From Saksenaea vasiformis B4078 (taxonomy: Eukaryota; Mucoromycota; Mucoromycetes; Mucorales; Saksenaeaceae): DNA of 64,000 bases. Below the pieces are notes generated by a model that did no database searches, was not told the origin of the DNA, and saw only the letters and a program-made list of their open reading frames with translations. The DNA lies in assembly GCA_000697055.1 (NCBI GenBank), contig JNDT01001783.1, positions 21,952-85,951 on the forward strand, in the 5' to 3' direction. Positions 3,647-64,000 of the stretch are shown here, piece by piece. The position numbers and the translations under genes are program-made. Each line of letters starts with the position of its first letter. Position 1 is the stretch's first letter.

Positions 3647-5346
3647 ATGGCTACGATTGATCTCTTTGACGATCCTACAGACTTCAGTCATGGATGCCTC
3701 CAAGATATTGATGAGCATATGCGGTGTGGCATTTGCAAGGAGTTTTACCAAACGGCCATGATCTTGACCACTTGCTCACATTCATTTTGCGCGTTGTGCA
3801 TTCGCCGTTGCCTGTCAACTGAAGCATGCTGCCCTAAATGCCGCATTCCCACTCATGATTCCAAACTGCATAATAATTACGAACTTGATAATATTGTCAG
3901 TAGCTGGAAGACGGCTAGGTAATAGACCTTGGCTGGCACATATTACCATGGCTGACATGCGCGTTCACAGGTCTACTGTATTGGACTTGGACAAAAAAAG
4001 CGAACAGGCACCACCACCAACAGCAACAGAGACAGAGACAGCGACATCCCAAATACCTTTGAAAACCGATAAAAAAGAACGATCGCAACCGGAATCGACG
4101 ATCGTGTCAAATAATAATAGCCCAACGCTCAGGCGATCAGGTCGACTTGAACAGCGAAAGACTCCATCAACACCTCCCTCTGATACAACGCCTCCTAACA
4201 AAGTATCTCCACCTGATATGACACCATCACCCTCTATGGCACCTCCGCACAGTATGGCAATACCACCTAACATGGTACCTCCTCACACTATGGCAATGCC
4301 ACCTAATATGATGCCTCCTCATCATATGGCAATGCCGCCTAATATGGTACCACCCTATGGTATGGTAATGCAACAGAATATGATGCCTTCATACAATAGA
4401 GCAATGCAACACAATACGATGCCTTCACATAGTACTGCAATGCCGCCCAACGCGATTCATCCTCCTTCTAACTTTGCCGCACCTTCCAATTCAGCGACGG
4501 AATCGCGATTAACCAATGATTCGGAAGTCCAATGCGCAGTCTGTGGAAAACATATGAAGTTTTCTATTTTGAACATGCATCTCGACCGGTGCCTCAAGGG
4601 CGATTCGACATTAACTGAGCTGGTGAGAAGAATATGATCTGAATATAACTATCGGATGCTAATTGCTGTTTTCAGGTCCGAACGACAAATGCATTAACGT
4701 AAGTCTCAAGAAATTCTTCGTTTTTTTTTCTTTCGCATCTGAACGGTAAGAGGCAGAGATGCGCCACCAAAGAAACCTACAAAATTAGTGTACAACATGC
4801 TCAAGGATAAAGACCTGAGAGCAATACTTAAGGTAAACAAGAATATCTGTGTTTACCTAATACCTAACATACGTATAGCAACTCGGTCTACCTGATAGTG
4901 GAGATAAGAAACAGATGGTTTGGCGACATAAGGAATATGTTACATTGTACAATGCGAACGCGGATTCATTAAACCCAGAACCGGCATCTGTTTTACTCCA
5001 ACGATTAAGAGAAGCGGAAACAGCTTATAACCAGATCAGGTTTTCAACAGCAAAGAAATCAACACCAGACGTGGAAGAACATGAAGTGAGAACAATGACA
5101 AAAATAGATTATGTTGTTTTCTCACTAGAAAACACTAGGCAAAATATAAAGAATTCTATGCCCAGTTGATAGAGCAAACAAAACAGCAGAAGCGTCCGCG
5201 CAACTCAGCGGCAAACGGCGAAGAACCAGCTGGAAAGAGGTAATGTATACAGGATCGTTAGAGACGATACTGATAACTGGTTTTTTTACAAGACATTCTG
5301 CAGAGTAAACAAGTCTGGAACTTGTGTAGAACGTTTTCAAATGGTG
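3647..5346 (+). CDS. RAD18: RAD18-type RING E3 ubiquitin ligase (post-replication repair)
   Basis: Rad18 monoubiquitinates PCNA with the E2 Rad6 at stalled forks and so recruits translesion polymerases. The domain order is diagnostic. A RING finger (CGIC, then CSHSFCALC and CCPKC) occupies about residues 24-65. A C2HC UBZ4-type finger (CAVCGKHMKF, then HLDRC) is encoded near 4530-4600. A SAP-like segment (KLVYNMLKDKDLRAILK, then QLGLPDSGDKKQM) is followed by WRHKEYVTLYNANADS. Exons fit 3647-3918, 3971-4622, a tiny 4676-4698, one ending near 4830, one from about 4881 to 5084, one from about 5137 to 5239, and a short last exon. The ATG at 3647 is preferred over the upstream in-frame ATG at 3590, which would prepend a hydrophobic stretch. 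Between RING and UBZ lies a Pro/Met-rich repeat. The last exon is uncertain: two acceptors near 5290-5303 give stops at about 5309 or 5346. Confidence 0.88.
4243..4458 (+). repeat. 36-bp coding tandem repeat in RAD18 (Pro/Met-rich)
   Basis: About six imperfect 36-bp units encode 12-residue repeats of the form PPHxMAMPPNMx. The first three are well preserved (PPHSMAIPPNMV, PPHTMAMPPNMM, PPHHMAMPPNMV); the later ones drift towards Gln, Tyr and Asn. They sit in the disordered linker between the RING and UBZ fingers and keep the frame open. Confidence 0.85.
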
Positions 5347-20934: not shown

Positions 20935-21905
20935 AATCTGGTGATGTTACTATAGGATTCTTCCCATGAATTTGCGTCTATTTGAAAATATTCAGTGTCA
21001 CCTCCAGATAAACTCTGCGCTTTGAAGTAGGTCTTTTTATGTTCATCCAATTCTATGATTGCGTGTCATATTCTTCCATGTTAGGTTTGTGCCGTTGGTA
21101 GCTTTTATTATCTAACGCAAAAGATGTGTCGGAGACACGGTTCCATTGTCTAGTGGAAAGGACACGTCAAAGATAGGATTCTCTGTCTCGTGCAAAAGGT
21201 GTGTCGGTGATGAGATCCTGTCATTTCATGCAAAGAGTGTAATAAAAGATACGGCTCTTTTTTCTTTTATCTCACGCAAAGGCATGGCGGTGGTAGGGTA
21301 CCATCGTCTCATGCAAAAAGTGTGTTCAAGACAAGTTCCTTTTACCTCACACAAAAAGGATGTCTCAAATAACGGAAAGTGATGCATATTTAAAGGGTCC
21401 ACTTCTTCCATCTTTTTTTTTCTTTTTTTTCAGTTTGCACATTATATTCGTCTTCTTTATCAATCCAACATATGGGAAACTATCCGAAAAACGAAACACT
21501 CAGCTTCCAAAACGATGCAAAGATCGTGTAACCGTACGAGCCCAGTACATGAGTTTGAACCCGAAAGGTGGTCTTTACGACAACAAACACCATGTCTTGG
21601 TGGAATACGAAAACGATATATCCAGGCATCTCCCAAAGGAAACATCTGGTAAAAGCGATAAAGGATATGAATATCATTCCATTTACTAACCAAGAAATGT
21701 GTTATATGGCACTCCAATAGATTCCGCCTCCATGGGAGGGACGACCTTCATGTAAGTAATAGATGCCCTTTCTGACATAACTGAAATACTAACTGCGTAC
21801 GCTCGTTTTCTTTTCAGCGTAAGGTTGGTTCTTTCTGGACGCAAAATTTATTTTAGAGTAGCGTAAAATGTATTTCAATAAATAGTATAAAACTAATTCA
21901 GCAAA
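20935..21905 (+). repeat. Dispersed repeat cassette, copy A
   Basis: A ~1-kb unit that matches, in inverted orientation and with clear divergence, 51060-52125. The shared order is: a lead block (starting near a CCATGAATTTGCGTCTATTTG motif at about 20965 and including ACCTCCAGATAAACTCTG), a tandem array of ~37-bp units at 21114-21375, the TATA-like GATGCATATTTAAAG at 21381-21395, a T/C tract at 21405-21432, a short coding-like stretch with FTNQE (about 21678-21715), an intron-like GTAAGT..TTTCAG (about 21753-21819), and a tail GCAAAATTTATTTTAGAG followed by AGCGTAAA (about 21840-21870). In this copy the coding stretch is interrupted by stops, so it looks decayed. It may be a duplicated lineage-specific gene with its promoter, or a non-autonomous transposon; I cannot tell which. 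Confidence 0.75.
21114..21375 (+). repeat. Degenerate ~37-bp tandem array (copy A)
   Basis: About seven consecutive units share the head ACGCAAAAGATGTGTC or close variants (GTGCAAAAGGTGTGTC, ATGCAAAAAGTGTGTT, ACACAAAAAGGATGTC) and a tail ending in TCTC or CCTC. Unit length is close to 37-38 bp except one longer unit. The array lies directly upstream of a TATA-like box, as expected of repeated upstream activating sites; that role is inference. Confidence 0.75.
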
Positions 21906-60801: not shown

Positions 60802-61579
60802 TTACAAGGAAGCCAAGTATAGCGAGCCAACAACGGTTCCACCAAGAACGGCATAGCCAGTCTTGTACACGTCCTTAATATCAATGAATTTGCCTGCATC
60901 CCAAACCTAGTACGACATGTGAATTTTTACTGGCCTCTTTTCTTTCACAGAGTTCATCTACTTACCAAATGTCTGATACCATTGAGAGAGTGGAAAACAA
61001 AGGGGAAAGCGACGGTAGTCTTGGCAAGGACCTTAGCAGCGACTGGGGCAGCGCCAACGGCGGACACAACGCTGGCAGTGTCAACGGTGACACCCATAGC
61101 AGGAGCGGCGAGGTAGGCCAAAGCACCCAAGTAGAAAGCTGAAAACGAAATAAATCATTGGAAAAGTCCCGGCTATCTTATCGAACTTACCACCACCAAT
61201 AGCGCAACCAGTGACTCTGTGTGCGCCAGACAAGTACCAAGTGATCTGGGGCTGGTAAATGCTCAAATGAGGCGACACAGGGCGAACCTTGCGCTGTTGA
61301 CGCAATAACTCGGACTCGGCGGCAGCACACTGTTCTTTCGAGGAAGGCGAGGCGTTGAAACGTCTTTTTCAAAAACAAGTATAAGAATTATGCATGCTAA
61401 TAAAAAAGGATTCTTTGATTGTACCTGACACCCACAGGAGCAACAGCCGCGTTTCTGAAAAGAGAGGTGCGGGTAGCAGGGTCTGTTAACAATGAGACAA
61501 TTAGTCTTTCATGCCGTGAAGTCTTCGTTGATAATTTACTCTGCGCAATCGTGCTGATAATGGAGCGAGTAGCTTGCAT
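60802..61579 (-). CDS. SDH3: Succinate dehydrogenase cytochrome b subunit (complex II anchor)
   Basis: Membrane anchor of mitochondrial succinate dehydrogenase, binding heme b and ubiquinone. Five exons: a first exon 61579 to about 61540 (MQATRSIISTIAQ, a mitochondrial presequence), then about 61482-61431 (PATRTSLFRNAAVAPVGV), an exon with RFNASPSSKEQ, RKVRPVSPHLSIYQPQITWY and LSGAHRVTGCAIGG, an exon with three hydrophobic stretches ending VFHSLNGIRHL, and a last exon VWDAGKFIDIKDVYKTGYAV. The SDHC signatures are P-x-S-P-H-L-x-I-Y-x-P and the quinone-site Ser in LSGAHRVTG, plus the heme-ligand His in FHSLNGIRHLVWD. Introns are near 61539-61483, 61430-61365, 61190-61142 and 60966-60908. The stop is at 60802-60804. 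Confidence 0.93.
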
Positions 61580-63130
61580 GGCTTTAAAGAGTGGGGTGTA
61601 AAATAATCAAGGCAGCGAAGAGAGTATCTTTACTTCACGAGGGGTTCCACTAAGAAGGCTGAACCCCCGCCCAATCCCCACAAATGACGTCAGTAAAAAC
61701 AACCAATCATTTTGAATTTTTTTACCTCCACATCGCCGCACGGCTCCAGGTCGCGGAGAGCTAATCCGGCCCGATGGATGGTCTGCATGACAGGTCCCCG
61801 CCGCCAGTGGATACAAAGTGATTAACCAATAGCCGGGTCCTGTGTTTCCTCATTCATGATCTCTGATCGTCGGTAAAAGCTCCAAGTAAATACCTACTCT
61901 GTTTAATAAACATTGCTGAAAACTCCAAGAAACCCCTGCTCTGTTCAATAGATCCAGAACAAATGGCTACTATCTTTTTTGCTACATGTAAACAGTAGTT
62001 GTGAGGACACTCGTTTATATATTGACCACTTGCATATACACAATTTAAGCCTGGTGAACCAACTTTATTGCAAAATCTCGTAAGTGATTTACGAGGCACT
62101 AAATGGATTGTGGTTAAATCCTTCCTCTCGAGCTGTTGCTGGATGCACAGTTCCTCTGTGGTGATCACTGCATGAGGAAATTGCTTCGGATCTCCTTTTT
62201 TTTTTAAGTTACCTGTAGCTGATTATGAACGCTGCGTAAACATAAATAGCTTACGAGTTTGACATGTTCTTTTTTCGTAGAAATATCACCATCAGAAGAT
62301 GCATCTTTCTTTGTAGACTTTTGTGTACTGCGTATTATAAAACAGTAATTGAAACCTTTGTACGCTTGATTAAAGTATAGATACATTCACTTGTCAGGGG
62401 ATGAACGACAGATAGAACGGAATAAAAAGAAAATTTCGTTGACACATCACTATTCTGACCTGTCACTATTTTCACTGATACTCGCTGTCTCGTGTAATAC
62501 ATCATCCCGCATATTATTTCTTGTCAATAAATGAGTTAGCCAAATATAAATTCAATTTTGCTACGTATACAAACTCCTGGTATAGCACACTCCTCTTTGA
62601 TAGCTTGAGATTGACGTCTCTGCTAATGATCGAGGAAACAAGGATATCCTTTTACCAGTTGTGCAAGTTTGCAAAACTGAAGTCCTTCCAATCTGATCAC
62701 TATCTCTACAGTAATGGTAAATTTGCATTACACTGACGTCTCCATTTGTTATTTAGGGTCCAATAACTACGATACACCGTAAACGGGTTGTGCTAAATAC
62801 TTTCTAGACTAAAGCACTCTGTTTCGCAGAAACTGAGAGCTTGCGCAGCTGTCATTGTGATGAAGACAAAATGCAATTTATATATGATGTAGGCGCACTT
62901 TGTTGGCCATTTCGCTTCAATTTGTTTGATCTCGTCTCAAATGATCAGGAAGTGTTTGCTCACGATCTGGGGTTAAATTAAGCGCATAGATTGTCCGGCA
63001 TAACCCGGCCCGAGTCTCCGGTTGTCCAAAAGGACTGATGGCTATTGCGTACGGTACGTACTGGTTTTTTCGGAAGTATTTGCGCTATTCGGGATTTAAC
63101 TTTGCGTTTCTTCGATTGATATGACTTACC
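61580..63130. other. 1.5-kb region without a gene
   Basis: SDH3 promoter side. A minus-strand 104-codon ORF at 61854-62168 and a plus-strand 71-codon ORF at 62521-62736 lack recognisable features. Nothing else is supported. Confidence 0.4.
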
Positions 63131-64000
63131 ATCAAAATCAAAATTGAAGAAGAGAAACGTAGAGTTTGTCAGAGAGTTGCATTCTCAACAACTTGGAACT
63201 TACCGTAACACGTAAATATCTAAATCTCTGCTGCCTCAAACAGCAGAGAAACCACATTCGTAGTGGCGATGTCTCTTGTTGGCGGACAGAAGACCGTCGG
63301 GCGACCCTGACCGCGCCATACGGATTTTGCGATGTAATCCATATTCTTAGCCGCGTTGATATCACGCTGCACGCTGCCATAGTGTGTGACAGTTGTTGCA
63401 GACTAACACACCATGGTGAGTGACACCATCGGAAGTTTCCATCTTCTTCATATCTCTACGCAAACATGTATTGCAAACCTATATGCGTTGTAGATCTAGC
63501 AATAAAACTTGATAGTGCTTACTTGGGATGTAAAGTACTCATCAATTTTGACGGATATGAACTCGCCACGTCTTTCCCTGCGCTTTAGCATTTTCCAACA
63601 CTTGTTTACTATTGCTGGCTTCTTTCCGCGCATAGGCGTTGTACCATTTGCCCCAAACATAGCTGATCTGAACACTATCAAAGGTATCTTTGTCGTCGTC
63701 ATGAATGGTGCGGCACGCCACTTCTTCTTTGGCCGAGGCCTATTTTGCGTAGAGCGTACTGCTGATTCTTTTGGGCTACATAATGTTGACTGTATTATAG
63801 TGTATTATTTGGTGGCCAATACAGATCTACTAACCCGGAAGTGTACGTCAGTTTCTTCCGATTCTTCTTGTTGGTTGCCATTTTTTCCTCCTTTTACGGT
63901 TCTGCTTTGTCCGCTTTCGTCGACGTCTCGGGTACTTTTTCCCACCATTCACTAAAACATTAGCCAGTTCTTCCTGAGCTCTTTGTACGCCTTGATAATT
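63131..64000 (-). pseudogene. Decayed TnpB/Fanzor-type (OrfB zinc-ribbon) transposon nuclease
   Basis: Minus-strand sequence carries the C-terminal landmarks of TnpB/Fanzor proteins, RNA-guided RuvC nucleases of IS607/Fanzor transposons. They are: FRSAMFGANGTTPMRGKK (63670-63610), KIDEYFTSQ (about 63560-63535), after a GTAAGC..ATATAG intron-like gap (about 63532-63489) VCNTCLRR, then VLVCNNCHTLWQR, and DINAAKNMDYIAKSVWRGQG with RPTVF. Thus the D/E-x-x-x-TS motif, the two CxxC pairs of the zinc ribbon and the final RuvC Asp (RDxNAAKN) are in the right order. Between WQR and DINAAKN the 7-bp GCAGCGT is duplicated (about 63366-63379), which breaks the frame, and other stops occur further upstream (about 63800). 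The N-terminus lies beyond the window edge. It is a remnant, not an active gene. Confidence 0.7.

Follow-up and report, generated by a model that had tools for sequence, protein, structure and literature searches.

Probable 3' end of a degraded Fanzor1-carrying transposon, with a candidate omega RNA scaffold, in a fungal genome

It is an open question why transposons of eukaryotes retain an RNA-guided nuclease, and the gene copies described here bear on it. These copies include one at the end of the window, the stretch of 64,000 nucleotides that we analysed (bases 21952-85951 of the 85,951-base contig C370; the last window base is the contig end). An earlier note had read the minus strand there as the remains of a Fanzor/TnpB-like gene. 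Is this a Fanzor gene, does it move with a transposon, and where would its guide RNA lie?

We located the motifs KIDEYFTSQ, CNTC, CNNC, WQR and DINAAKN on the minus strand, as the earlier note had described, and found that they belong to the final exons of a Fanzor1 gene at 63059-64000 (Table 1). The gene lacks its 5' part, since window base 64000 is where the contig stops. The exon 3 piece is the basic stretch that follows the RFRNYQ motif of relatives; the start of this exon lies beyond the contig end, and its frame is lost ahead of the splice site, with a stop at 63850-63848. The intron that follows was predicted from the copy comparison, its last base being placed by hand count. Between exons 4 and 5, removing the 44-nt intron fuses IDEYFTSQ in frame with VCNTC, and the spliceosomal-type intron that had been proposed between EYFTS and the first CxxC is a well-supported prediction. 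A 7-bp tandem duplication after the second CxxC (CNNCHTLWQR) puts DINAAKN in a different frame from CNNC..WQR; this duplication is missing from the nine other copies aligned with the window copy. Downstream of WQR, both DINAAKNM and GRPTVF are out of frame, and the shifted frame ends in a TAG stop at 63222-63220. Hence, with its frames broken by the duplication and the exon 3 stop, the window copy is a pseudogene, a dead remnant that is frameshifted, lacks its 5' part in the assembly and cannot make protein; the word 'remains' is borne out by the frameshift.

Table 1. Features of the Fanzor1 remnant and its 3' tail, in window coordinates
Feature	Position	Strand	Basis
Fanzor1 exon 3, 3' part, cut by contig end	63835..64000	(-)	copy comparison
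Predicted intron separating exons 3 and 4	63740..63834	(-)	GTTAGT...AAATAG, from alignment with other copies
Fanzor1 exon 4, rearranged RuvC-II glutamate motif KIDEYFTSQ	63523..63739	(-)	motif, copy comparison
Predicted intron, 44 nt, GT-AG	63479..63522	(-)	in-frame joining; same position intronic in other copies
Fanzor1 exon 5, CNTC..CNNC zinc ribbon and WQR	63220..63478	(-)	translation, Pfam search
7-bp tandem duplication, frame-breaking	63364..63377	(-)	between zinc ribbon and RuvC-III aspartate
Candidate guide (omega) RNA scaffold, ends at element right terminus	63059..63272	(-)	conservation, covariation
Predicted hairpins of candidate scaffold	63251-63267, 63225-63249, 63199-63216	(-)	RNA folding
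Element right end, CAGTA (TA = possible target-site duplication)	63059..63063	(-)	copy comparison
Predicted native guide, first 20 flank bases past element end	63039..63058	(-)	Fanzor biology as described in PMC10432273, and observed boundary

The family of the gene was assigned with the help of C582, a relative that, starting at MVCASC, has 757 open codons once introns are removed, with no other change, and to which one more upstream exon can be spliced. The C582 protein matches PF07282, the Pfam TNB/OrfB zinc ribbon, at 37.5 bits (cut-off 26.3). In the window, the spliced exon 4-5 piece up to the frameshift also gave the profile match that the earlier note had suggested looking for (E 2.9e-4), at a score of 21.4 bits that falls below this cut-off; neither the piece past the frameshift nor the four unspliced window ORFs matched a Pfam family. 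The best PDB sequence matches of C582 are the Fanzor1 proteins of Guillardia theta (GtFz1, E 5e-5) and Spizellomyces punctatus (SpuFz1, E 4.7e-4), with individual stretches that are not significant alone (i-Evalues 0.23 and 0.42). The third solved Fanzor1, from Parasitella (PMC11423790), was missing among the C582 hits up to E 1.

Catalytic signatures agree with these matches. DPG at RuvC-I is found as ALDPG or SLDPG in C582, C485, C209, C552, C577, C631, C492 and C628, and the window copy stops short of this position. The E-x6-CxxC arrangement with the rearranged RuvC-II glutamate, given as a Fanzor signature in PMC10711439, reads EYFTSQVCNTC in the window and EFYTSQICHAC in C582; the second CxxC follows at a spacing of 21, compared with 12-18 in the TnpB search pattern of that paper. 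The RuvC-III aspartate is in frame in C582 (CKNCHTLWQRD) and in another frame in the window copy. In addition, the C582 protein fits the pattern D-X(125,275)-[TS][TS]XX-C4-X-RD published for Fanzor (PMC3627910), with a D-to-TS distance of 224. Hence, the TNB domain of the relative, the two PDB hits, DPG and E-x6-CxxC support the assignment of the window gene to the Fanzor1 family, and a different zinc-ribbon family is not indicated.

Near the N terminus of C582 (L026:1961-2300), we found two knuckle-like motifs of the form C-x2-C-x4-H-x7-C. No Pfam family scored above threshold in this region, and none of the papers listed by our literature search for a link between Fanzor and zinc knuckles mentioned Fanzor. 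Searching residues 1-713 of the 757 against a set of 5.8 billion proteins, which may lack fungal proteins, gave no homologue at E <= 0.001 among 7996 candidates scored.

The same genome holds 20 further places related to the window copy by blastn; the longest match is C552, with 95% identity over 942 bases. By comparing the copies we grouped them into three subfamilies of our own: A (window, C552, C198, C443, C492 and, more distantly, C628), B (C582, C450, C485, C209, C191, C464 and C9) and C (C577, C631, C354, C571, C459, C613 and C447). The copies have unrelated flanks, in line with the claim that the gene moves with a transposon. Frames are broken in the window, C552, C450 and C485 copies, several copies are cut by contig ends, and C443 has an internal deletion that brings a first-exon-like stretch directly against the final portion of the zinc-ribbon exon.

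Beyond this family, the 38.7-Mb genome gave at least 137 matches to PF07282, with 150 of 388 candidates scored. This marks a large expansion, within a single fungal genome, of several Fanzor/TnpB families. No window-family place is among the matches listed, possibly through an intron that removes part of the match or through the partial scoring of candidates. The Zn2Cys6 domain is essentially fungal, and we found 50 matches to it in this genome and 0 in 14 control genomes. Hence, the genome is fungal, as the earlier note had proposed.

Selection was compared on homologous in-frame exon 3 pieces, taken from stop to stop, so that the values include a few edge intron codons: between subfamilies, pS and pN were 0.774 and 0.255 for C582-C552, 0.88 and 0.262 for C582-C631, and 0.84 and 0.261 for C552-C631. 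These values indicate that exon 3 is under purifying selection between subfamilies, with synonymous sites near saturation. Within subfamilies, dN was close to dS in B (0.055 vs 0.056 for C582-C485; 0.021 vs 0.013 for C582-C209) and in A (0.047 vs 0.057 for C552-C492), and below dS in C (dN 0.141, dS 0.566 for C577-C631). We left out L046_100, L044_141 and L045_117 (unrelated ORFs that pass a loose filter), L045_166 (another Fanzor family) and L046_203 (little overlap with exon 3). Such a pattern of selection would be expected for a transposon gene that is kept through active copies and decays in many others.

The right ends of the elements are sharp. In all three subfamilies, copies end at ...CAGTA or a near variant and then run into unrelated DNA: 15 of the 22 aligned copies finish in GTA, two (C577 and C9) keep CAG without TA, and five (C443, C300, C623, C126 and C628) diverge or are cut earlier. 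A few bases are missing immediately ahead of GTA in C450, C582 and C464. The earlier note had suggested a transposon end or a guide-RNA region in the non-coding DNA at 62.4-63.1 kb; the end is there, at 63059, and the RNA-like region lies instead inside the element and overlaps the gene. A guide RNA at 62.4-63.1 kb was ruled out, the flank 62420-63056 being single-copy in the genome.

On the left, the four readable subfamily-B ends begin TA-(C/T)AGCTTTTTGC; similarity starts further in for L054 and L055 (87% similar), where such an end was not read. Compared with the reverse complement of the C485 right end, the C582 left end agrees at 18 of the first 25 positions, a score that none of 20,000 random pairs equalled, in a register picked after viewing the ends. 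For subfamily A, the one candidate left end compared with the window right end (C443) showed no match. A search for inverted repeats via shared 9-mers, with the left boundary set too far in, returned none. The C459 and C198 flanks, searched for empty sites, both enter other repeats several bases past the element end; the TA could belong to the element ends since no empty site was found. No DDE/D transposase turned up in six ORFs taken from the 5' region of the C582 element, and one of these ORFs gave four sub-threshold matches to other families. The flanking TA together with the imperfect inverted repeats of subfamily B points to a possible carrier of Tc1/mariner type.

A high-copy repeat at window 21500-21888, with at least 48 matches (40 of 406 candidates scored) and no long ORF seen, shares its last ~50 bases with the right end of these Fanzor elements (CAATAAATAGTA). 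It looks as if it had been moved by the same transposase as the Fanzor elements.

We found that the tail of the elements is conserved. Mean identity between subfamilies is 0.73-0.89 in 60-column alignment windows that start at C582 positions 4524-4721, at and beyond the stop codon of C582, with 0.67 in the last one. Over the gene it is 0.50-0.77, with the coding maximum in the zinc ribbon and introns near 0.5. By these alignments, the tail, which in the window overlaps the 3' end of the Fanzor1 frame, is conserved between subfamilies equally to or better than coding sequence whose synonymous sites are near-saturated.

RNAalifold on 17 copies predicted three stem-loops in the 5' part of the tail, plus weaker ones. 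These 17 are from the 22 end-aligned copies (omitting C628, C447, C9, C126 and C300); C623 was placed by hand, the C443 and C577 ends were adjusted by hand, and C623 and C628 had given no automatic end. Pairing is kept in 95.6% of 342 cells, with 20 cells in 5 pairs changed on both sides. The paired share, the number of cells changed on both sides and the covariation score were each unmatched in 500 shuffles, whereas two other counts did not exceed the shuffles: double-changed pairs (5 vs 4.5) and additional types of pair (16 vs 16.8). Covariation events are few because the copies share ancestry. The compensatory changes fall in two of the three hairpins: in hairpin 1 mainly C-G against U-A (subfamily B), and in hairpin 2 U-A against C-G and G-C against A-U (subfamilies A and C). 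Slid controls paired at 33-48% compared with 95.6%, a comparison that favours the counted hairpins because these were picked from single-sequence folds; the stability of such folds exceeds that of shuffled sequences at most weakly (z -0.93 and -1.57).

A covariance model built from the 17 copies found five copies outside the alignment (L064, L063, L020, L065 and C628 at L045:6648). It also found the tail of a different Fanzor gene (C628, L045:1077-1356; 42.2 bits, E 2.8e-8), in which hairpin 1 and the end are retained and hairpin 2 is shortened; the tail of this second Fanzor family also has the TTTACG/GGTAAG sequence of hairpin 3. Rfam gave two matches over 62.3-64.0 kb, at E 0.61 and 0.94, far under their gathering scores. 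We consider the conserved 3' tail to be a candidate guide-RNA scaffold, which it probably is.

The locus is best explained as the 3' end of a degraded DNA transposon carrying Fanzor1, with its tail as an omega RNA scaffold, and we give this reading a probability of roughly 0.85; the transposon is identified by homology, and the roles of nuclease, RNA and guide are inferred. Chief among the alternatives is that the gene is Fanzor1 and its tail is transposase-binding end DNA, such as a long subterminal repeat, or an ordinary 3' UTR. The last ~50 bases are indeed common to the repeat at window 21.5-21.89 kb, and the last ~25 bases of subfamily B resemble its left end; therefore, that part behaves as a transposon end. 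However, the sharing is limited to the terminal ~50 bases, whereas the three inner hairpins, two of them with compensatory changes, are found at Fanzor gene ends, and hairpin 1 and the hairpin 3 sequence recur in the second Fanzor family. We judge this alternative unlikely.

A host gene or domesticated Fanzor, rather than a transposon remnant, would account for the multi-exon structure and the strong purifying selection between subfamilies. It fits poorly with many copies that stand in unrelated DNA, several of which run off a contig end, with four broken frames and with dN near dS within subfamilies A and B, and is highly improbable. Least probable of all is another zinc-ribbon family or a bacterial TnpB contaminant, an idea that the shortness of the zinc ribbon and the sub-cut-off Pfam score of the window piece leave some room for, but that the GT-AG introns, the Fanzor1 PDB matches, the DPG and E-x6-CxxC signatures and the Zn2Cys6 genes of the genome oppose.

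For the Fanzor1 transposon, working copies would operate as follows. The multi-exon gene would encode an RNA-guided DNA nuclease, as its family suggests. To judge from conservation and covariation, the omega RNA scaffold would be transcribed from the final ~215 bases of the element in subfamily A and the final ~260 in B and C. The guide would be the first ~20 bases of any DNA flanking the right end, after CAGTA. As described in PMC10432273 and PMC11423790, the guide is the 3' flank of an omega RNA, and cutting requires a short motif on the 5' side. The nuclease may then cut sites in which the left-flank ...TA motif stands beside the flank sequence, which is the empty site after excision, and from TnpB/Fanzor biology such cutting would be expected to help the element persist. 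It is possible, if doubtful, that the 3' end of the scaffold consists of the right terminal repeat and the target duplication, that the edge TA doubles as the target-adjacent motif, and that the two N-terminal CCHC-like knuckles were gained, perhaps for RNA or chromatin binding.

Alignment with the solved proteins shows likenesses to each: GtFz1 shares the TNB zinc ribbon and the glutamate before the first CxxC, and SpuFz1 the C-terminal GHGRPE-F motif. For both, PMC10432273 describes a guide RNA with the guide at its 3' end. However, only short stretches align, and the two N-terminal motifs are a feature of the window family. Fungal Fanzor1, multi-copy elements and Mariner-like ends are already published (PMC3627910). 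The elements PUl-4 and PGv-1 (Bao and Jurka 2013, PMC3627910) are described as carrying Fanzor1 between Mariner ends, with TA duplications, and, as subfamily B seems to, have inverted repeats and TA on both sides; PUl-4 likewise encodes Fanzor1 alone. They come from other organisms, the likeness is one of description rather than sequence, and no matching autonomous transposon was identified here. The Mucorales families MCi, ROr and PBl are likewise fungal multi-copy Fanzor1 elements in that paper, but, by description, those with assigned ends are MuDr-like with 9-bp duplications and others are unclassified, compared with TA here. As far as searched, the window holds a broken copy of a new Fanzor1 family of an already known type.

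One genome offers three near-saturated subfamilies, a covarying RNA-like tail, sharp right ends and an open relative. Together, these features make the guide RNA, the target motif and a role in element retention predictable and testable, the tests being possible because the open frame of C582 exists.

Three neighbouring features were also seen. On C628, a second, diverged Fanzor gene (L045:1-1356) lies ~3 kb upstream of the subfamily-A-like copy on the same strand. In C552, another repeat (L022:4873-5333) starts where subfamily-A similarity stops, and identical copies of it form the extreme ends of contigs C486, C383, C663 and C15. In the window, a gene resembling SDHC (succinate dehydrogenase cytochrome b subunit) by eye lies on the minus strand at 60950-61610, ~1.5 kb from the Fanzor end.
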